Below are positions 7,183 to 23,405 of a stretch of DNA of 28,421 bases, piece after piece; the first letter of the stretch is position 1, and every line of letters begins with the position of its first letter. The notes beneath the pieces are model-generated. The model was not told the origin of the DNA, made no database searches, and saw only the letters and a program-made list of their open reading frames with translations. The translations under genes were made by a program, and so were the position numbers. The DNA is from a virus, in IMG/VR virus record IMGVR_UViG_3300028608_000063, positions 1 to 28,421 of that record; one strand, given 5' to 3'.

Positions 7183-7800
7183 ATGACTTTCGTCTATGCA
7201 ATACTCGGCCAGAAAGGGGGCGGGGGGAAAACCTCGACCGCCTTTAGCCTGGGCACTTGGCACGCGCAGCGCGGGAAGCTGGTTTTTTTCGGCGACACCG
7301 ACCTGCGTCAGCAGTGCCTGACCGAACTGCTCTACTGCCGCACCCATAAACACGATATGACGGCGATCGTCGCCGACACCTATGCCGGGATCACGGCCGC
7401 GATGCCTGCAGGCTGCGACGTGCTGATCATCGACGGCAAGCCCAACGCGAGCGACCAGACCCTGCTGATCGCCGGTCGCGCAGATCGCATCATCATCCCC
7501 TGCGCCTCGAGCCGAACGAATCTGATCGCCTCGGGCAATCTGGCCGACCAGCTGATCGCCAAGGGCATCAGGGCCGACCGGATTTTTTTCGCGATCACCC
7601 CGGCCGCCTCGAAAGCCCACGCCGCGAAAGCGGTCGCGGCCCTCGAGCAGTACGGTCACAAGGTCGCGGCGACCCTGCCGTTCTCGCCCGAGTTCGAGTC
7701 GGCCCTCGACGACGGCCGCGCCCTGCATGAAGCGTCGAATATTCATATGCGCGCAGCCGGTCAGGCCTACGTCGCAGCCCTGATCAGCAAGCACGCCTAA
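7183..7800 (+). CDS. parA: ParA-family partition ATPase
   Basis: A 205-residue protein with AAGGGG upstream of the ATG. It carries the deviant Walker A of ParA/MinD ATPases, KGGGGKTS at residues 11-18 with the signature lysine at 11. A Walker A'-like segment, FFGDTDLRQQ, follows near residue 35, and a Walker B-like LIIDGKPN near residue 82. Its short length without an N-terminal DNA-binding domain fits the type Ib (ParF-like) group, which segregate low-copy plasmids by forming nucleoid-bound gradients and use a small ribbon-helix-helix partner. Such a partner is encoded two genes downstream. DTD replaces the common DxDPQ and GKPN replaces the usual PP, so some divergence is evident. A lone chromosomal-type ParA is the alternative. 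Confidence 0.85.
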   Translation: MTFVYAILGQKGGGGKTSTAFSLGTWHAQRGKLVFFGDTDLRQQCLTELLYCRTHKHDMTAIVADTYAGITAAMPAGCDVLIIDGKPNASDQTLLIAGRADRIIIPCASSRTNLIASGNLADQLIAKGIRADRIFFAITPAASKAHAAKAVAALEQYGHKVAATLPFSPEFESALDDGRALHEASNIHMRAAGQAYVAALISKHA

Positions 7801-7813
7801 AGGATCCGCCACC

Positions 7814-8062
7814 ATGAACAACCCAATCCCGACCCTAAACAACCCCGACACCATTGAACGCGCCCGCAAAAAGATCGCCCAGCTACAGGACGCCCGCGAA
7901 CATTTTGATCTGAATCTGAGTTATTCAGTCGCCTCGGGCTGGATCGCGGCCCTGCAGGTCGAGGGCCTGATCACTAACTCGATTTTTTACGATCTGAGAC
8001 GCGAACTGAATCAGACGCATCAGGTCGTGACCGACAAGCTACCGCAACCGCAACCCCTTTAA
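7814..8062 (+). CDS. Small protein of the partition-like operon
   Basis: An 82-residue protein; AGGATC precedes the ATG and the gene starts 13 bases after parA. It is predicted to be largely helical (RARKKIAQLQDAREHFDLN, then IAALQVEGLITNSIFYDLRRELNQ) with a Pro/Gln tail. No family was recognised. Its position between ParA and the ribbon-helix-helix protein suggests a role in segregation or in its regulation, but that is inference only. Confidence 0.75.
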   Translation: MNNPIPTLNNPDTIERARKKIAQLQDAREHFDLNLSYSVASGWIAALQVEGLITNSIFYDLRRELNQTHQVVTDKLPQPQPL

Positions 8063-8074
8063 GGAGTCACCAAC

Positions 8075-8284
8075 ATGGCAAAGACCGTCGACATTAAAGC
8101 CCGCAACAAGCCCGCCCCGGACCCAACCAAAAAGGACAAGCGGAACGACGACGTGCAGGTTCTGCACCTGTCGCTGACCCCCGCCGAGCACCGCGAATTC
8201 AAGGTCGAGGCGCTGAACGCTGATATCACAATGCTCGAGCACTTTCGGGCGGTCGTGAAATTCTGGCGCGAGGCGCATCAATGA
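8075..8284 (+). CDS. Ribbon-helix-helix protein, candidate ParB/ParG-type partner
   Basis: A 69-residue protein with a strong AAGGAG site. The N-terminal ~28 residues are basic, polar and probably disordered (KARNKPAPDPTKKDKRND). They are followed by a ribbon-helix-helix pattern: strand VLHLSLT, helix PAEHREFKVEALNADI and helix TMLEHFRAVVKFW. This layout, a flexible basic tail followed by a dimeric RHH domain, is that of ParG-like centromere-binding proteins that stimulate ParF-type ATPases and repress their own operon. Similar RHH proteins also serve as antitoxins, but no toxin is seen beside it. It overlaps the next gene by ATGA. Confidence 0.65.
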   Translation: MAKTVDIKARNKPAPDPTKKDKRNDDVQVLHLSLTPAEHREFKVEALNADITMLEHFRAVVKFWREAHQ

Positions 8285-8595
8285 GGACCCCGCGAATCAC
8301 CGCGTCAGACTGGTCGCTCGGCGTGGTCAACTTTCCCGAAATGCGCCTGATATTGGTCGAGGATCTGGACACCCTCGGCCGGCGCAGCGTGACCAATGAC
8401 GCCGAGGACGTGCTCGCCGCGATCAATGAGGTCATGCCGATCGACGCCCGAACCCGAGTGATCTACAAGGATTCGGCCGGTCAGTGGGATCAGCTGCTCT
8501 ATGACGCGACCTATACGCCGCAACCGTTCCGCGGGTTTCGTGGCCTTGACACTACCGACCTCGAGGTCGCGATCGAAAAGGTCAGGGGGCAATGA
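8281..8595 (+). CDS. Hypothetical protein, partition-like operon
   Basis: A 104-residue protein in an ATGA overlap with the preceding gene, so probably translationally coupled. It is acidic to neutral, with mixed alpha/beta patterning (WSLGVVNFPEMRLILVEDLD, then ARTRVIYKDSAGQWDQLLYD). No membrane segment or known motif is visible and no family was recognised. Codon use matches the phage genes around it. Confidence 0.75.
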   Translation: MRTPRITASDWSLGVVNFPEMRLILVEDLDTLGRRSVTNDAEDVLAAINEVMPIDARTRVIYKDSAGQWDQLLYDATYTPQPFRGFRGLDTTDLEVAIEKVRGQ

Positions 8596-8825
8596 TGGAC
8601 ACCGACAACGCCCTGCAGATGTGGGTCATCACCGAGAAAGCCCTCGAATGCTGCGATCTATTCGTCGCTCGGCTGCACCTGATCACGGCCGGGACGATCA
8701 TTCAAACCGATACGTTCCACCGTGCCGACAGCCTGCAGGCCGTGCGCCGGATGATCCCGCAGGGTCTGGTCATGCTGACGCGGCACCCAACCGACGCGCC
8801 CGACGTGGTCGAGACGTGGTTTTAA
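8592..8825 (+). CDS. Hypothetical protein, partition-like operon
   Basis: A 77-residue protein starting at ATG 8592 (or the adjacent ATG 8595, which is better spaced from AGGGGG). It overlaps the previous stop. The sequence has hydrophobic helix-strand patterning (ALQMWVITEKALECCDLFVA) and no recognised family. The tight overlaps indicate a single transcript with the genes from parA onward. Confidence 0.7.
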   Translation: MMDTDNALQMWVITEKALECCDLFVARLHLITAGTIIQTDTFHRADSLQAVRRMIPQGLVMLTRHPTDAPDVVETWF

Positions 8826-8842
8826 ACCGAGGAGAAAAACGA

Positions 8843-9082
8843 ATGCCTTTAATGATCGACGCCGAATCACTGCAAACGCTGCTCGAGGAGCGGACGCGGG
8901 CCTATGCACACCGCGCGAAGCTGGCGCGGGCGTGGCTGGATCAGGACCGCCCCGCTCGCCTGGAAGGGCTCGAAACTTTCGAGGCCGAGTATCCCGTCGC
9001 CGAACACGCCTGCAACGCCGCCGACCGGCAGATCGCCGACAAAGTCGAACTGCTGGTTTGGCAGGTCGAAAATAATATCTAG
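8843..9082 (+). CDS. Hypothetical helical protein, end of partition-like operon
   Basis: A 79-residue protein. ATG 8843 is chosen because GAGGAG lies 8 bases before it; the frame is open further upstream but inside other genes. The protein is highly charged and probably all alpha-helical (LLEERTRAYAHRAKLARAWL, then ADRQIADKVELLVWQVENN). No family was recognised. It is the last gene before a repeat and a terminator, so it closes the operon that begins with parA. Confidence 0.75.
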   Translation: MPLMIDAESLQTLLEERTRAYAHRAKLARAWLDQDRPARLEGLETFEAEYPVAEHACNAADRQIADKVELLVWQVENNI

Positions 9083-9114: not shown

Positions 9115-9118
9115 TTTG

Positions 9119-9145
9119 AGCCCGCCGATTGAGCGGGCTTTTTGT
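9119..9145 (+). terminator. Rho-independent terminator
   Basis: AGCCCGC (9119-9125) and GCGGGCT (9133-9139) form a perfect 7-bp GC-rich stem with a 7-base loop, followed by a T-run. It ends the tail/partition transcript and insulates the promoter of the next, Aca-linked operon. Confidence 0.85.
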
Positions 9146-9154
9146 TATCAGATG

Positions 9155-9204
9155 AACGGCAGATCCTGCCGTTTACACCGGCAGATTTTGCCGGTATCTT
9201 GACA
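9155..9204 (+). promoter_or_regulatory. Two palindromic operators next to a -35-like element
   Basis: Palindrome 1 is AACGGCAG/CTGCCGTT (9155-9162, 9166-9173). Palindrome 2 is ACCGGCA/TGCCGGT (9177-9183, 9189-9195). Both contain CGGCAGAT, and the GGCAG cores are 22 bp apart, two helical turns, as expected for two dimers on one DNA face. TTGACA follows at 9199-9204. The -10 element is poor (around 9222), so the exact promoter is uncertain. In the known aca1 systems, Aca1 represses its operon by binding inverted repeats at the acr promoter, and an Aca1-like gene lies downstream here. Confidence 0.65.
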
Positions 9205-9236
9205 ACTCCCCAGCAAGCCAAACAGAGACGACGACC

Positions 9237-9560
9237 ATGACCACCATTCGAACCAAACGGATTAACGAAACCAACGCGGCGACCGTTACGCACGAATGGG
9301 GCGCGGTCGACGCGAAGGGTCGTCAAATTGGCTTGTTTATTTCGACTCGCGAATGCGATTTCGTCGAGCAGACGGACCTCTCGTTCACCTCCTACCGCGT
9401 CCCGGTCGGTCATGCGTTCGCCGCAAAAATGCAGATGACCAAGGACGGCAAGGCATGGGGCTCAACCCAGCAAGAACAGTATTTCTCAACCGTCGAAGAA
9501 CGTACCGCGGCGATCGTCAAGCGACTGCACGCGGCGATGAAAAAAACCGGCACCCTTTGA
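9237..9560 (+). CDS. Small orphan protein, first gene of the Aca-linked operon (anti-CRISPR candidate)
   Basis: A 107-residue soluble protein with no signal peptide or membrane segment. It opens with a Thr/Arg-rich stretch, then ATVTHEWGAVDAKGRQIGLF, a central beta-rich part, and a C-terminal helix (ERTAAIVKRLHAAMKKTG). I recall similar proteins as uncharacterised phage gene products but know no function. It is directly controlled by the double palindrome upstream and lies two genes before an Aca1-like repressor, the classic position of an anti-CRISPR gene. That functional suggestion rests on context alone. Confidence 0.75.
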   Translation: MTTIRTKRINETNAATVTHEWGAVDAKGRQIGLFISTRECDFVEQTDLSFTSYRVPVGHAFAAKMQMTKDGKAWGSTQQEQYFSTVEERTAAIVKRLHAAMKKTGTL

Positions 9561-9567
9561 ACCGACC

Positions 9568-9587
9568 GCCCCCTGCGGGGGGGCTTT
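9568..9587 (+). terminator. Weak hairpin terminator or attenuator
   Basis: GCCCCC and GGGGGGC around a TGC loop form a compact GC hairpin directly behind the 9237-9560 gene. Only three T residues follow, so termination would be partial and the downstream genes would be expressed at a lower level. Confidence 0.5.
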
Positions 9588-9608
9588 ACCACCCAGGAGC
9601 ATCGAACC

Positions 9609-9911
9609 ATGATCATTCAAGCATTCAACACCGGCCGCACCTACACCCGCGAAGGTCAGCGCATTGCATACACCGTCGTCAGCCGCGACGCCGACGATTT
9701 TCTGCAGCTGGCGACCGTCGCGTTCTACGACGTCGATCGCATGGTCGACGGCGTGCTGACCATCGCTGTCGATCCCGAGGCCGCGGTCAAGGATCGCGAC
9801 GTTCTGAACGCCTACGATCGCGGCGGCTATGGCTACATCGCCGACTATGCCCTGCGCGATCAACTCAAGACCGCAGCCGCGGCCGTCGCCCCTGTGGGGG
9901 TCGCCCGATGA
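9609..9911 (+). CDS. Small orphan protein immediately upstream of the Aca1-like gene (anti-CRISPR candidate)
   Basis: A 100-residue protein with AGGAG upstream of the ATG. The composition is strongly acidic: several Asp-rich blocks such as DADDF and FYDVDRMVDG, and net negative charge overall. Predicted alpha/beta fold; no membrane segment; no recognised family. Its stop overlaps the ATG of the Aca1-like gene (ATGA), so the two are co-translated. In characterised acr-aca1 loci of Pseudomonas phages the anti-CRISPR gene sits directly before aca1, which makes this the strongest positional candidate. Acidic proteins that mimic DNA are common among such inhibitors. Confidence 0.78.
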   Translation: MIIQAFNTGRTYTREGQRIAYTVVSRDADDFLQLATVAFYDVDRMVDGVLTIAVDPEAAVKDRDVLNAYDRGGYGYIADYALRDQLKTAAAAVAPVGVAR

Positions 9912-10114
9912 AACCGGACAGCAAAAACCACAACCCGGACCCGGCCTATATCGACGGGCTGGTCAAGTCGACCGGCCTGCAGCGCACCGAAGTCGCCCGC
10001 CTGCTGGGCATCAGCGACCGCACCCTGCGCACCTACACAAGCGGCGAGACGGCGACCCCGTACCTCGCGCAATTCGCCCTCGAGGCACTGACCCAGGAGC
10101 ACCGCAAGAAATGA
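9908..10114 (+). CDS. aca1: Aca1-like helix-turn-helix repressor
   Basis: A 68-residue protein in an ATGA overlap with the previous gene. From memory it aligns over nearly its whole length with Aca1 of Pseudomonas phages. The shared pieces are NHxPDPxY (residues 7-14), the helix-turn-helix with LLGxSDR (residues 32-38), and the closing QFALExL (55-61). Aca1 (79 residues) is the autorepressor of anti-CRISPR operons and binds inverted repeats at their promoter. The N-terminus is shorter here, and the loop after the helix-turn-helix lacks a few residues present in Aca1. The double palindrome at 9155-9195 is the obvious candidate operator. A generic Cro/C1-type regulator is the alternative. Confidence 0.75.
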   Translation: MKPDSKNHNPDPAYIDGLVKSTGLQRTEVARLLGISDRTLRTYTSGETATPYLAQFALEALTQEHRKK

Positions 10115-10407
10115 GCGCTAAATATCTGATGAACCCGGCGACCGGATCCGTCGACACCGACGAAAACTGGCTGACTGATAAACCGACCTGGGAAGGCGAT
10201 CAGCAGGCGCAGTTCGACACACTGATCGAGGTCGCGAGCCTCGACGGCAGGTTCTGGCATGAAATCGAAGTATTCGCAAACCTGATGGACGACGACCTTC
10301 GCGAAGAACTTCACAGCAGCCGCGACTGGCAAAGCGAGCAGGAATTTTTAGACGCCTACGCCGTCGCGCACCTCGCCAAGTTTGGCAAAGAATTCACAAT
10401 CAACTAA
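10111..10407 (+). CDS. Highly acidic small protein downstream of the Aca1-like gene
   Basis: A 98-residue protein whose ATG overlaps the preceding stop (ATGA). Asp and Glu greatly outnumber Lys and Arg, giving a net charge of roughly -15. The acidic residues are clustered (VDTDENWL, MDDDLREEL, QSEQEFLDAY). No membrane segment and no recognised family. Small, very acidic phage proteins are often DNA mimics that inhibit restriction or CRISPR enzymes. Combined with its place in the Aca-linked operon this supports an anti-defence role, but it is only an inference. Confidence 0.75.
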   Translation: MSAKYLMNPATGSVDTDENWLTDKPTWEGDQQAQFDTLIEVASLDGRFWHEIEVFANLMDDDLREELHSSRDWQSEQEFLDAYAVAHLAKFGKEFTIN

Positions 10408-10423: not shown

Positions 10424-10816
10424 ATGACCGAAGCCCAGCATGACCGCGCCGCGATGATCGCCAACATGGTCAGCAGCATGAACGAGAGCGCCGCCGAGTG
10501 GGCCGTTCTCGCCGACACCTTCAAAGGGACGTTTATCGCGATGGACGACCTGGGGCGCGTGCACTGGTCCCTGCCTGCAGGCGGCGTGCTGCTCGCCCAG
10601 TGCACAAGCGAGGGCCGCCCGATGGGCCTGCATATGGATCAGGAAACCGTCGACGCCGCGCTGCTCAGCGTCGGGATGGAACCGAAGGCGTTCGAACACG
10701 GGCTGCGCACCCTGCGCGACCATCCCGGCGCGCTGATCATCGTCGAGGCCGGCGCGCACTTCACGGCCGAGGCCGCGAAATGCCGCAAGATCGCCGCGGA
10801 TCTGCAAAACCAATAG
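10424..10816 (+). CDS. Hypothetical protein, Aca-linked operon
   Basis: A 130-residue protein. ATG 10424 is preferred because AGGAG lies 8 bases before it; an in-frame TTG at 10382 falls inside the previous gene. The sequence is mixed alpha/beta (FKGTFIAMDDLGRVHWSLPA, then a C-terminal segment GALIIVEAGAHFTAEAAKCR). No family was recognised. It could belong to the same transcript as the Aca1-like gene; the 16-base gap holds only the ribosome site. Confidence 0.75.
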   Translation: MTEAQHDRAAMIANMVSSMNESAAEWAVLADTFKGTFIAMDDLGRVHWSLPAGGVLLAQCTSEGRPMGLHMDQETVDAALLSVGMEPKAFEHGLRTLRDHPGALIIVEAGAHFTAEAAKCRKIAADLQNQ

Positions 10817-10882: not shown

Positions 10883-11023
10883 ATGAGCAAAACGGAATAT
10901 AGCACCCTACGCCGCACCCCGCTCGCCGACGTCGGCGCCCTGCCGGCCCGTCAGCTGCTGCAGTTCCTGGCGACCTGCTCGCCCAGGATCCGCGCCCAGC
11001 TGCTCGAGGTCCTGACCCGCTGA
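10883..11023 (+). CDS. Small 46-residue protein
   Basis: A short frame with an excellent AGGAGG ribosome site 5 bases before ATG 10883. It encodes 46 residues starting MSKTEYSTLRRTPLADVG, with a helical second half (RQLLQFLATC, RIRAQLLEVLTR). A strong terminator follows it directly. No family was recognised. The ribosome site, codon use and terminator make it a real gene. Confidence 0.7.
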   Translation: MSKTEYSTLRRTPLADVGALPARQLLQFLATCSPRIRAQLLEVLTR

Positions 11024-11028
11024 ACCCG

Positions 11029-11055
11029 ACCCCAGGCCTCGCCCTGGGGTTTTTG
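11029..11055 (+). terminator. Rho-independent terminator
   Basis: ACCCCAGG (11029-11036) and CCTGGGGT (11043-11050) form a perfect 8-bp stem with a 6-base loop and a T5 run. It closes the small-gene operon that begins at the double palindrome. Confidence 0.85.
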
Positions 11056-11915: not shown

Positions 11916-12938
11916 TTATCTGATGGTTCGTAGAGTCTCACTACTTTGTGCACTAAATAACTCGCCTGATGGTTCGTCGAGTCTCACGTCAGCGGCCCGT
12001 TTTTGCCGTCTGAAATAGGTCGCGCGACTGATCCCGAGGGCGACCCAGGGCTCGCCGAGGTCTGGGCGTTTCGCGCGGATCGCCCCCATCTGCAGGGCGA
12101 ATGCCTCCTCGCTGCCGGCCTGGGCCTTGCGTGATGCGGCACTATGGCGACCCAGTTCGGCCTGACGGGCGCGCAGGGCCGGCGAGTCACCGCGGCCCGT
12201 GTATTTTTTCCACGTCCAATTGGCGACCGACTTCACGATGCCGGCGACTTCTCTGACGTCGAGCGGCGGCGACCCCGTGTTATAGGCCTCGGCCCGGTCC
12301 TGCAGGTAACGCTGCCACGCCCCGAGGTCGTTCGCGTCGCGATACTCGCTGACCCATTGGTAAGCGTGCAGGCGCAGGTCGTCGAACAGCGAGCAGTTCC
12401 GCCCGAGCCCGTGTTTTTTGGCGTCATCGCGCAGTTCGCGTTTCGACTTGCCCTGCAGGTCTAGCGCGTCCTGCAGTTCGCCCAGGCTATAGGGGACCGT
12501 TCGCAGTTCGCGCAGGACCCAGTCGGGATGGGTCGGGTTTTTTGCCAGGAGCCCAGCGTAAAACGGATCGGCCGAGGTCGCCCGCACGATCGCCGCCTCG
12601 ATCGCCGCCAGATACTGCAGGGCCTTTAGGCTGGCCTCGCCGCCGACCTTGACCGGCACGGCGAGCGCGTAGAAGGCGTGGGCGTGATGGTTATCCGGGT
12701 TTATGACGACGTAATTCGCGAGGGGGATTTCGCCGTCGAGCATGCGGCCGACGATCGAATAGATCGGCCGGTCGATATCGACGACGATCCAATAGGAACT
12801 ATGCGGGGGATTAAACTGCAGATACCGATAGCGCAACGCCGTCGCGAGCGGTCGGATCCGCGAGAACTCGCCGAGCCAATCCACGCAATAGGGCTTAGCC
12901 GGCAGGCGGTCGTCATCGAATAATTTTAGTTGCTGCAT
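11916..12938 (-). CDS. ColE2-type plasmid replication initiator (Rep/primase family)
   Basis: A 340-residue protein. It combines features of the RepA/replicase family of ColE2-like plasmids: an AEP-primase-like VDIDRP (Asp54, Asp56) followed by HHAHAFY (His84-His87), then a PriCT-like region with NPTHPDW (residues 134-140) and GRNCSLFDDLR (179-189). Near the C-terminus is a helix-turn-helix (LGEPWVALGISRATYFRRQK). Such proteins bind the origin and synthesise the first primer for DNA polymerase I. The start has a G-rich ribosome site inside a hairpin. The last ~24 residues are encoded by the 22-bp repeats. Presence of this gene beside a ParA system suggests replication as a plasmid in the prophage state. 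Confidence 0.8.
   Translation of the reverse strand: MQQLKLFDDDRLPAKPYCVDWLGEFSRIRPLATALRYRYLQFNPPHSSYWIVVDIDRPIYSIVGRMLDGEIPLANYVVINPDNHHAHAFYALAVPVKVGGEASLKALQYLAAIEAAIVRATSADPFYAGLLAKNPTHPDWVLRELRTVPYSLGELQDALDLQGKSKRELRDDAKKHGLGRNCSLFDDLRLHAYQWVSEYRDANDLGAWQRYLQDRAEAYNTGSPPLDVREVAGIVKSVANWTWKKYTGRGDSPALRARQAELGRHSAASRKAQAGSEEAFALQMGAIRAKRPDLGEPWVALGISRATYFRRQKRAADVRLDEPSGELFSAQSSETLRTIR
11920..11987. repeat. Two 22-bp direct repeats at the 3' end of rep
   Basis: CTGATGGTTCGT followed by AGAGTCTCAC (11920-11941) recurs at 11966-11987 with one change (CGAGTCTCAC); the copies start 46 bases apart. A degenerate copy (CTGATGGTTCGTTTGTCTCA) lies at 11699-11718. Both full copies lie inside the last codons of rep, in different frames, so the end of Rep appears to have been made by duplication. 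TAGAGTCTCAC also occurs at 7121-7131 upstream of parA. Repeats beside a ColE2-type rep suggest iteron-like binding sites. Confidence 0.65.
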
Positions 12939-19800: not shown

Positions 19801-22557
19801 ATGGCTACTATCGAAGACCTGAAGCGGCGCATACGTCTCGCCGACGTCATCGGGTCGTGCATTGATCTAAAAAAACAGGGCAGCGAACTCAAGGGCCTTT
19901 GCCCGTTCCATAAGGAAAATTCGCCGAGCCTCGCCGTGTTCACCGACGCCGCCGGCCGCGATCGTTTCTACTGTCACGGCTGTGGCGAGTCGGGCGATGT
20001 GATCGACTGGTTCGTAAAGTTCGACGGCATGACCGAAAAAACCGGCCTCGCCAAACTGCGCGAACTGACCGGCGACGATAGTCCCCTGCAGCGCGAACCG
20101 CAGCAGCCTCGAGAGAAACCGAAATTCACGTTCACCGACGCCCCGCACAACGAACCGGCGCCGTTCTCGATCTACTCGCACAAGGCCCAAGGGATCCGCA
20201 AGGTCGTCGACGCATGGCCTTATCGCTCGCCTGCAGGCGCTTTGCTCGGCTATACATGCCGCGTCGAGGTCGACGGGAAAAAAGAAGTGATCCCCATCCG
20301 CTGGACCCTCGAAAAAGGCTGGCGTCAAAAGTCCCTGGACATTCCCCGCCCCCTGTACGGCGCCGATCTGCTCGCCGAACGACCGGACCTGAACGCGATC
20401 ATCGCCGAGGGCGAGAAAGCCGTCGACGCGGGCCGGCGGATCATGGACGGTTTCGACGTGAACGTCGCCACCTGGGCCGGCGGATGCGGCGCGACGCATC
20501 ATTCGGACTGGTCGCAGCTGGCAGGCAAAAAGGTCGTTCTCTGGCCCGACTGCGACTCGAAGCGCTACCCCGACAACCATCCCCGCGCCGGCGAACTGAT
20601 GCCCTACATCGAACAGCCGGGGATGGTCGCGATGCTGAACATCGCCGGCATGCTCGAGGACCTGGGCGCCGAGGTTCGGATCGTCGCGGTCCCGGCCCCA
20701 GGCACGGCCGAAAGCTGGCCCGACGGCGAGGATTTCGCCGACCTCGAGGTCAAGGGCTGGACCCGCGGCGACGTCCTGGCGTTCATCACCGACAACGCGC
20801 GCACCGCGGCCGAACTGCTGGCCGCGCACCCGGTCCCCGAGGACCTGCCCCCGGATGACGGCGGCGGCGACTATGTCGGCGAGCCGGCGTTTTATGACGA
20901 CAACGGCGACGACGGCGACCTGCCCCCCGTGCCGAAACGCTGGTTCCCCGGCGCCGACGCGCACCTGCCGTTCAAGATCCTCGGCTACTACGGGACGACG
21001 TATTTTTATTACACCCGCGACGCGAACCGGGTCGTCGCGCTATCCCTGGCCGCGCACAAGGCGCCGAACCTGTTCACCCTGGCCGACGCCGACTGGTGGA
21101 AAAAGCATTTCCCAGGCCGACGCGGCGATGCCAGCTGGACCGACGCGGCGAACCACCTGATCAGATTCAGCACCGTGAAAGGCACCTTCAACGATGACCA
21201 CCTATGCGGCAACGGCGCGCACTGGGACAACGAACGCGCGGTCGTCAACATCGGCGACGGCCTGATCGTCGACGGGCGCCGGGTCGGCTACCTCGAGCAC
21301 GACAGCGAAAACACCTACATCAGCGGCGAGGTGATCCCCGTCGACCTCGAGCACCCCCTCGACAATGAGGAGGCGGTCAAGCTGCTGGCGCTCTGCCAAG
21401 GTTTCCGCTGGGAACGCCCGATTAATGCACACTTCGCCGCGGGCTGGACGTTCATCGCCCCTATCGGCGGCGCCCTGGACTATCGGCCCTCGATCTGGCC
21501 GACCGGATCCTCGGGCGTCGGCAAAACCACCCTGCAGACAAAGGTGATCCGCCCCTGCCTGGGTCGGTTCGGCCTGTTCTGCGCCTCGAGCACGACCGAG
21601 GCTGGCCTACGTCAGAAGCTGGGGAACGCCTCGATCCCCGTCCAGTTCGACGAATTCGAGAGCACGTCGCAGGGCGAGCAGAAACGAACGGCCGGGATCG
21701 AGTCGCTGGTCATCCAGGGCGCGACCGACGACGGCGCGGGCATTTACAAGGGCGGCGCCGACGGGAACTCGATCAGGTATCAGGCCCGGTCCATGTTCTG
21801 TTTTTCGTCGATCACGGTCGACCTCGCGAGCAAGGCGACCAGCTCGAGGATCACCGCCCTCGGCATGCTGCCGGCGCTCGAGGGTCAGGGCGAACGATTC
21901 AAGAAACTGAAACGCCTGATCGCGACCACGCTGACACCGGCCTACGTCGCGAGCCTGCAGGCGCGGGCGATCATGCTGATCCCGGTCATCCGCCACAATG
22001 GGCAGGTTTTCGCCCAGGCACTGAACGAGAAATTCAATGATGCCCGCATGGGCGACCAATACGGCACCCTTCTCGCCGGGTCGTATGCCCTGCACTCGAC
22101 CAACAAAATCACCCTCGAGGCGGCGATCGAATGGGTCGCGGCGCAGGACTGGGAAGAAGAACGGCACGTCGTCGAGGACGGCGACGAACTGCGCCTGATC
22201 AATTTCATCACCGGGCAAAGCATGCGACTCTCGACCGAGGGCGGCGTTTTCATCGACTACAACATCGGCGAACTGGTCGAGGCGATCCGCGGGCAAAACA
22301 AGGCTGACGGCCTGTCGATCGAGAACGCGAAAGCCGGCCTCGCCCGGTATGGGATCAAGGCCGACATTCAGACCCATATGCTGCAGATCGCCAACCAGCA
22401 CCCGAAATTGGCGCGCATGCTCAAGGACACGGAATGGTCAACGTCATGGCCGCGCACCCTGGCACGGATCCCAGGCGCCCAAAAAAATAACCCGTCGATC
22501 AGGTTCGCCGGGACGAAAGCGCGGTTCGTGGCCGTGCCGTTCGAGGCCCTGGATTGA
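19801..22557 (+). CDS. Primase-helicase with CHC2 zinc finger
   Basis: A 918-residue protein. The N-terminal ~90 residues form a CHC2-type zinc finger (Cys34, His37, Cys58, Cys61) used by DnaG-like primases to recognise template. A Toprim-like region has Glu203 and the DCD pair Asp250/Asp252. The second half resembles the DUF927 helicase family, with Walker A GSSGVGKTT (569-577) and FDEFES as Walker B (617-618). Together this is a two-headed phage primase-helicase for lytic DNA replication. GGGGG precedes the ATG at a suitable distance. It overlaps the following gene by TTGA. Confidence 0.88.
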   Translation: MATIEDLKRRIRLADVIGSCIDLKKQGSELKGLCPFHKENSPSLAVFTDAAGRDRFYCHGCGESGDVIDWFVKFDGMTEKTGLAKLRELTGDDSPLQREPQQPREKPKFTFTDAPHNEPAPFSIYSHKAQGIRKVVDAWPYRSPAGALLGYTCRVEVDGKKEVIPIRWTLEKGWRQKSLDIPRPLYGADLLAERPDLNAIIAEGEKAVDAGRRIMDGFDVNVATWAGGCGATHHSDWSQLAGKKVVLWPDCDSKRYPDNHPRAGELMPYIEQPGMVAMLNIAGMLEDLGAEVRIVAVPAPGTAESWPDGEDFADLEVKGWTRGDVLAFITDNARTAAELLAAHPVPEDLPPDDGGGDYVGEPAFYDDNGDDGDLPPVPKRWFPGADAHLPFKILGYYGTTYFYYTRDANRVVALSLAAHKAPNLFTLADADWWKKHFPGRRGDASWTDAANHLIRFSTVKGTFNDDHLCGNGAHWDNERAVVNIGDGLIVDGRRVGYLEHDSENTYISGEVIPVDLEHPLDNEEAVKLLALCQGFRWERPINAHFAAGWTFIAPIGGALDYRPSIWPTGSSGVGKTTLQTKVIRPCLGRFGLFCASSTTEAGLRQKLGNASIPVQFDEFESTSQGEQKRTAGIESLVIQGATDDGAGIYKGGADGNSIRYQARSMFCFSSITVDLASKATSSRITALGMLPALEGQGERFKKLKRLIATTLTPAYVASLQARAIMLIPVIRHNGQVFAQALNEKFNDARMGDQYGTLLAGSYALHSTNKITLEAAIEWVAAQDWEEERHVVEDGDELRLINFITGQSMRLSTEGGVFIDYNIGELVEAIRGQNKADGLSIENAKAGLARYGIKADIQTHMLQIANQHPKLARMLKDTEWSTSWPRTLARIPGAQKNNPSIRFAGTKARFVAVPFEALD

Positions 22558-23405
22558 ACCCCTACACCCTGCGCGGCAAAACCTGCCTGTCGCTGTCGGG
22601 GGGCAGAACGAGCGCGTTCATGCTGGCGCAGGTCCTCGAGGCGAACCCCGACCGCGGCGATCTGGTCGTCTGTTTCGCCAACACCGGGCGCGAACACCCG
22701 GCGACCCTCGATTTCGTGCGCGATATCGGCGAGCGCTGGGGCGTGCCGATCGTGTGGCTCGAGTATCGCCGCGGCCTGCCCGGTTTCGAGGTCGTCGATC
22801 ACGCCACCGCCGGCAGGCACGGCGAGCCCTACGCCGCCCTGATCCGCAAAAAAAAATATCTGCCACGCCCGACGGCTAGGTTCTGCACGTCTGATTTAAA
22901 AATTCGCCCGATGGCCCGCTATCTGCGCGACGTCCTGGGCTGGCCTGCAGGCTATGACATGCTGCTCGGGATCCGCGCCGATGAACCGCGCCGGGTTTCG
23001 AAAATGCGCGGCAAGTCGACAAGCGAGGTCAAGGGCGCCGAAATTCTGCTGCCACTGGCCGAGGCCGGCGTCGACGTGCAGCAGGTCGGCGCGTTCTGGC
23101 AGGCCCAGGCGTTCGACCTGCACCTGCGGGCAATCAACGGCCGGACGACCCTCGGCAACTGCGACGCCTGTTTTTTAAAGGGGGCTGGTCAGGTTTATTC
23201 GATCATCACCACCGATCGCGAGGTCGGGCTATGGTGGGCCGAACAGGAACAATGGGTCGAGGACAACGGCAAGCCGAGCAAGCACGGCGCCCGGTTCCGC
23301 CTGGATCGTCCAGGCTATCGGGAAATGCTGGCGAACGGGAATGATCAAAGCGACCTGTTTCCCCTGGACGACGACGATCAGATCGACTGTTTTTGCGGGG
23401 CATAA
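22554..23405 (+). CDS. PAPS-reductase-like (PP-loop) phage protein
   Basis: A 283-residue protein. The start must be TTG 22554, coupled to the previous stop, because the next ATG falls after the essential PP-loop. SGGRTS (residues 15-20) is the pyrophosphate-binding loop. FANTG (41-45), RFCTSDLK (Cys111), GIRADEPRR (139-147) and NCDACFLKG (Cys203, Cys206), with a final DCFCGA, are typical of phage PAPS-reductase-like proteins. Relatives activate sulphur or form AMP adducts; some alter phage DNA or transfer sulphur to it. No DNA phosphorothioation (Dnd) partner lies nearby, so the substrate is unknown. It ends the replication operon. Confidence 0.82.
   Translation: MNPYTLRGKTCLSLSGGRTSAFMLAQVLEANPDRGDLVVCFANTGREHPATLDFVRDIGERWGVPIVWLEYRRGLPGFEVVDHATAGRHGEPYAALIRKKKYLPRPTARFCTSDLKIRPMARYLRDVLGWPAGYDMLLGIRADEPRRVSKMRGKSTSEVKGAEILLPLAEAGVDVQQVGAFWQAQAFDLHLRAINGRTTLGNCDACFLKGAGQVYSIITTDREVGLWWAEQEQWVEDNGKPSKHGARFRLDRPGYREMLANGNDQSDLFPLDDDDQIDCFCGA

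Follow-up and report, generated by a model that had tools for sequence, protein, structure and literature searches.

Do the small genes around a putative Aca1-like regulator in a virus record form an anti-CRISPR (acr–aca) operon and, if so, which CRISPR–Cas type would it counter? We addressed this in what we call the window, which is the whole 28.4-kb virus record (28,421 nucleotides). Judged from sequence, the locus is almost certainly an acr–aca operon, a reading that draws on Aca1 homology, an operator match and an AcrIC5 domain, and it is very probably aimed at type I-C CRISPR–Cas.

Operon layout and genome setting

All four ORFs named in a first-pass annotation (A, B, aca and D) are present (Table 1). 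Stop and start codons overlap as ATGA at both the ORF B–aca and the aca–ORF D junction. AGGAG sites precede ORFs B and E, and another, ahead of ORF D, lies within the end of aca. Third-position GC is 0.69–0.87 in the operon genes, which is codon-like for a 55–68% GC genome. The annotation had also described the operon as bounded by terminators. This holds on the upstream side, where a terminator-like hairpin ends the preceding gene cluster, but not on the other, as no terminator-like site on the plus strand directly follows ORF D. The nearest one downstream lies beyond ORF E and a 46-residue ORF, and the operon may therefore take in both of these as well; ORF E is probably co-transcribed with A–B–aca–D. 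Between ORFs A and B (9560–9590), we also noted a G+C-rich hairpin-like stretch, CCGCCCCCTGCGGGGGGGC, a possible attenuator or processing site.

Table 1. Features of the operon and its surroundings in the window.
Feature	Position	Strand	Description
ParA-like protein	7183–7800	+	
Terminator-like hairpin	9118–9140	+	GAGCCCGCC...GCGGGCTTTTTG; end of upstream gene cluster
Operator IR1	9158–9170	+	GGCAGATCCTGCC; GGCA-N5-TGCC, upstream of −35; predicted
−35 hexamer	9172–9177	+	TTTACA; consensus scan
Operator IR2	9180–9192	+	GGCAGATTTTGCC; within 17-nt promoter spacer; predicted
−10 hexamer	9195–9200	+	TATCTT; consensus scan
ORF A	9237–9560	+	107 aa, pI 9.5; orphan; candidate Acr/anti-defence gene by position only
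ORF B	9609–9911	+	100 aa; orphan family; candidate Acr/anti-defence gene
aca1-like gene	9908–10114	+	68 aa; helix-turn-helix repressor, predicted by homology
ORF D	10111–10407	+	98 aa; KYLMNP (~10111–10242), then AcrIC5 domain (~10243–10404)
ORF E	10424–10816	+	130 aa; orphan; own AGGAG site, 16 bases 3′ of ORF D
46-aa ORF	10883–11023	+	possible final gene of transcript
Terminator-like hairpin	11028–11051	+	probable operon end
Replicase-family and PriCT-1 protein	11916–12938	−	plasmid-type Rep

Besides the operon, the window carries baseplate and tail-fibre genes, ParA and a Replicase/PriCT-1 protein. A phage-plasmid is a plausible description of the genome, with Rep and ParA in keeping. We found no close DNA relative of the window among phage records, and the baseplate protein is nearest to those of Bordetella and Paraburkholderia phages at about 50%, a likeness that is not evidence of host. 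Two further features stand outside the operon: a row of small orphan ORFs at 7814–9082, from ParA to the terminator that precedes the acr promoter, which is a possible accessory or anti-defence cluster, and a PAPS-reductase-like phage moron gene at 22554–23405, 3′ of a primase gene.

An Aca1-family protein and its predicted operator

The 68-residue protein had been likened to Aca1, and the alignment that was proposed as a check gave a clear match. PDB Aca1 chains align with residues 2–63 at E values of 3.8e-14 to 5.2e-14; three Aca1 sequences match, and the next chain reaches only E 0.05. Identity to the Aca1 proteins of Pseudomonas phages is 47–55%. By tblastn, we retrieved 133 phage records, 129 of them from Pseudomonas phages (best E 3e-15, identity up to 55%). 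Hits also extended to 180 plasmid records from Pseudomonas, Xanthomonas and Methylomonas. PHROG 3865 matched with an E value of 1.4e-19, and generic helix-turn-helix (HTH) families scored far below the Aca1 family. In viral contigs, single-sequence scans with the Aca, ORF D and ORF A proteins returned no matches; relatives there required alignment queries, and in an IMG/VR scan with an Aca family alignment the best 80 of 92 relatives showed 41–56% identity. By homology, the protein is an Aca1-family member, though no sequenced one is close to it: it matches over most of its length and above other HTH families, shares its operon with an acr gene (ORF D, which holds an AcrIC5 domain) and has an Aca1-type inverted repeat within the operon promoter.

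The double palindromes that had been reported in the promoter are there, as IR1 and IR2. As a pair they are found at this one place in the window, and none of 100 shuffles produced such a pair. The window also has a single −35/−10 spacer that holds a palindrome of this class; among 200 whole-window shuffles, only 1 had any. In the phages DMS3, MP29 and JBD93, the operators are GGCACATTGTGCC and GGCACAATGTGCC, and their GGCA-N5-TGCC core is identical to that in the window; the Aca1 probe printed in PMC9410881 has the same core. Searching for the exact GGCA core within 1,200 bp upstream missed many loci, which a generic palindrome-in-promoter search recovered. Without assuming the core, we found that 19 further non-redundant promoters of the Aca1 family have a palindrome in the −35/−10 spacer, in most cases with a GG[CA]A-N5-T[GT]CC core; in one example (L072), AGGCAGTGGCTGCCT accompanies a TTTACA-17-TATATT promoter. 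An inverted repeat within the core promoter has been described as the rule for aca operons (PMC9410906). The operator match is independent, DNA-level support for what we predict to be Aca1-type regulation, and the recurrence of GG[CA]A-N5-T[GT]CC in the promoter spacer across diverse Aca1-family loci offers a second, protein-independent marker for acr operons.

The closest known counterparts are the aca1–acr operons of Casadabanvirus (DMS3, MP29, JBD93 and JBD30), which share with the window an Aca1-family repressor (47–52% identity), an upstream gene that overlaps aca and a double GGCA-N5-TGCC operator with one copy in the promoter spacer. They differ in operator spacing (25 bp between centres, compared with 22 bp in the window), in their upstream genes and in their position among head genes, whereas the window operon lies near tail and partition genes and has an acr-domain gene downstream of aca.

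Within the family, TC7-type Aca1 proteins, with the recognition stretch TARALRNYVS, pair with GGAACA operators (L009, L020, L021 and L024), and proteins of the SDRVMRYYLS type, such as that of DMS3, pair with GGCACA operators. A specificity code is possible but not a simple one, as L026 and L090 encode SDR types with GGAACA.

A broader reading would make the 68-residue protein a general phage HTH autoregulator of an accessory (moron) operon whose small genes have no part in defence. aca-like genes are reported to occur widely, in some cases with no acr gene next to them (PMC9410906), and ORFs A and B match no known Acr family in Pfam, NCBIfam, PHROGs or PADLOC. However, the specific Aca1 family rather than a generic HTH, an Aca1-type operator and an AcrIC5 domain coincide here in one operon, and we regard a non-defence operon as very improbable.

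An AcrIC5 domain in ORF D

The first-pass annotation had recognized no known Acr among the orphan genes. This stands for ORFs A and B but not for ORF D, the very acidic gene after aca, as its C-terminal part is an AcrIC5 domain. The acr–aca reading thereby becomes firmer and the locus less novel. The acidity was rightly noted: ORF D has a pI of 4.2 and a net charge of −14, and both halves are strongly acidic (pI 4.05 and 4.48). Residues 55–95 match Pfam PF22147 (AcrIC5) with 51.2 bits against a gathering cut-off of 27, covering profile positions 13–53 of 53, and residues 51–96 match AcrIC5 in PDB 7yhr (E 6.6e-13). A fold search with the AlphaFold2 model of ORF D ranked 7yhr top (probability 1.00, TMt 0.63, E 1.9e-3), on a model of moderate confidence (pLDDT 70, pTM 0.43). 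AcrIC5 is a small stand-alone protein of about 60 residues, whereas ORF D has 98 residues and an N-terminal domain; extended AcrIC5 proteins also occur in L104, L106, L118 and L122, which places the membership of ORF D at the domain level.

In our census, AcrIC5 adjoins aca1 in L086 and in L021/L024, and the ORF D domain is 53–58% identical to such aca1-linked AcrIC5s. The L086 stretch shows no difference from 7yhr over the aligned part, and it is 53–54% identical to the ORF D domain. Like the Pseudomonas protein in 7yhr, ORF D has the whole domain of about 55 residues, strongly acidic and with the conserved NLMD...REELHS...QEFLDAY. In L086 and L021/L024, acrIC5 stands alone upstream of aca1, whereas in the window it is fused and downstream of aca. 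New here are the fusion to an N-terminal domain of about 44 residues, which we call KYLMNP, and the placement of the gene downstream of aca1.

AcrIC5 was originally found beside aca1, which served as the marker; it fully protected phages against type I-C and, in a CRISPRi assay, kept Cascade from binding DNA (PMC7913775). The acidic protein is proposed to take up the place of the target DNA (PMC10478522). An aca1-adjacent homologue of AcrIC7, at 37%, was inactive (PMC7913775), and the N-terminal fusion could change or abolish the activity of the AcrIC5 domain in ORF D. We consider it likely that ORF D would inhibit type I-C CRISPR–Cas in the manner of AcrIC5.

For the locus as a whole, we think it highly likely that a phage-plasmid-like genome here carries an autoregulated anti-CRISPR operon, in which ORF D would block type I-C and an Aca1-like protein would repress transcription; from the observed homologies, operator match and operon layout we infer the following sequence of inhibition, binding and repression. 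On entry, the sigma-70-type promoter would transcribe A–B–aca–D, probably together with ORF E. The AcrIC5 domain of ORF D would then block type I-C CRISPR–Cas, most likely by filling the site at which Cascade binds DNA, with KYLMNP as a second acidic module. Further inhibitors of CRISPR or of another defence would come from ORF B and, with less certainty, from ORF A. As the Aca1-like protein accumulates, it would bind the two GGCA-N5-TGCC palindromes over the −35/−10 region and shut the operon down.

AcrIC5 domains also turned up in other contexts. One protein in L118 (1236–1625) and one in L119 (725–1114) combine an XRE-type helix-turn-helix with AcrIC5 and appear to be self-regulating Acrs, and in L125 AcrIC5 adjoins a short Aca1-like HTH gene. 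A 61-residue AcrIC5-like ORF lies between VP2 and VP4 in a Microviridae record from pig feces (L013:1441–1626; MG945373.1). This is a 5.5-kb single-stranded DNA phage record marked UNVERIFIED, and a microvirus would be an unusual carrier of an anti-CRISPR.

Orphan ORFs A and B and the KYLMNP domain

Homologues of ORF B occur in L002 and L003 (46–48% identity) and in L027 (36%). In L027, the homologue opens an operon whose operator, AGGCAACCGTTGCCT, lies inside a TTGTCT-17-TAGAAT promoter; two orphans and aca1 come next. B-family genes thus sit behind Aca1-type operators in two distinct phage-like records, which makes ORF B a good Acr or anti-defence candidate. By this guilt by association, the chance that it represents a new Acr or anti-defence family is about even or better. 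The predicted structure, a β-sheet and two helices, is confident (pLDDT 90, pTM 0.81); it has no convincing match among solved folds, and in a viral structure library one uncultured phage protein matches convincingly. For ORF A, homologues are weak (34% identity and lower) and come from Caulobacter, Sinorhizobium and Stenotrophomonas phages; an Acr or anti-defence role, suggested by position, is uncertain. Matches in PADLOC (LmuC, mad1 and PDC-M45A) were weak, and matches of ORF B to Drosha and a phosphatase and of ORF A to UHRF, weak and biologically implausible, were dropped as chance.

It is a real possibility, somewhat short of an even chance, that only ORF D is an Acr and that ORFs A and B counter other defences such as restriction–modification. 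In L002 and L003, the ORF B homologues are found amid stretches of small mobile-element genes without aca1, in L003 near a RadC-like gene, and ORF A homologues sit among small genes lacking an assigned function in other phages. The L027 homologue argues otherwise, as it belongs to an aca1 operon, where co-encoded genes are usually Acrs. Restricting the Acr role to ORF D is compatible with the autoregulated anti-CRISPR operon that we favour, as far as aca and ORF D are concerned.

KYLMNP spans ORF D residues 4 to about 44. It aligns with the C-terminal region of HTH proteins from Klebsiella and Edwardsiella phages, an Enterobacter plasmid and Entomohabitans, and short free-standing KYLMNP proteins occur in L140 and L132. 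We found no match to it in Pfam or PHROGs and no convincing one among solved structures; matches to NKG2-D, weak and biologically implausible, were set aside as chance. A genome-contig scan with KYLMNP returned one locus, and 2 of 295 genomes from that genome's family matched, which makes the domain rare among the sequences searched. When the two halves of ORF D were aligned jointly, the result was too heterogeneous for scanning.

Three fusions thus exist: HTH–KYLMNP, HTH–AcrIC5 and KYLMNP–AcrIC5. The last was confined to the window among the sequences searched, at the sensitivity used, where very near records may be left out. The HTH–KYLMNP proteins of Klebsiella phage BUCT541 and Edwardsiella phage EPP-1 share 53–62% identity with the window's KYLMNP over about 40–55 residues, but carry it on an HTH domain, with neither AcrIC5 nor Aca1. 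AcrIF24 and the HTH–AcrIC5 fusions similarly join acr–aca modules in one chain, whereas the window encodes its HTH protein separately and has AcrIC5 fused to KYLMNP. ORF D also follows the two-module logic of AcrIE4-F7 and of a predicted AcrIC5/AcrIIC4-like fusion (PMC10799925), although its second module matches no solved Acr. The shared fusion partners would be explained most simply if KYLMNP were an inhibitor module itself, small and controlled by an HTH.

Because KYLMNP occurs without AcrIC5, free-standing or HTH-fused, it appears to be an independent functional unit, and an Aca1-regulated operon could contain an ORF D that has drifted, its AcrIC5 domain inactive against type I-C and its KYLMNP domain working on another defence target. 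The fully kept AcrIC5 core, NLMDxxxREELHS...EQEFLDAY, argues against such decay, and we judge it improbable. More tentatively, and in our view doubtful as a combined claim, ORF D may be a two-headed anti-CRISPR with KYLMNP as a new anti-CRISPR or anti-defence module, and ORF B may found an Acr family that travels with Aca1. The locus offers three candidates for direct testing: an AcrIC5 with an added domain, an orphan family (ORF B) that recurs behind Aca1-type operators, and KYLMNP, a domain both small and acidic that connects AcrIC5 to the helix-turn-helix fusions of other phages.

In an enterobacterial phage, a plasmid and a genome, a similar small basic protein (~67–70 residues) precedes each HTH–KYLMNP gene (L006:2580–3159, L015:3585–4162 and L096:3576–4165), and the two genes together resemble a mobile accessory cassette.
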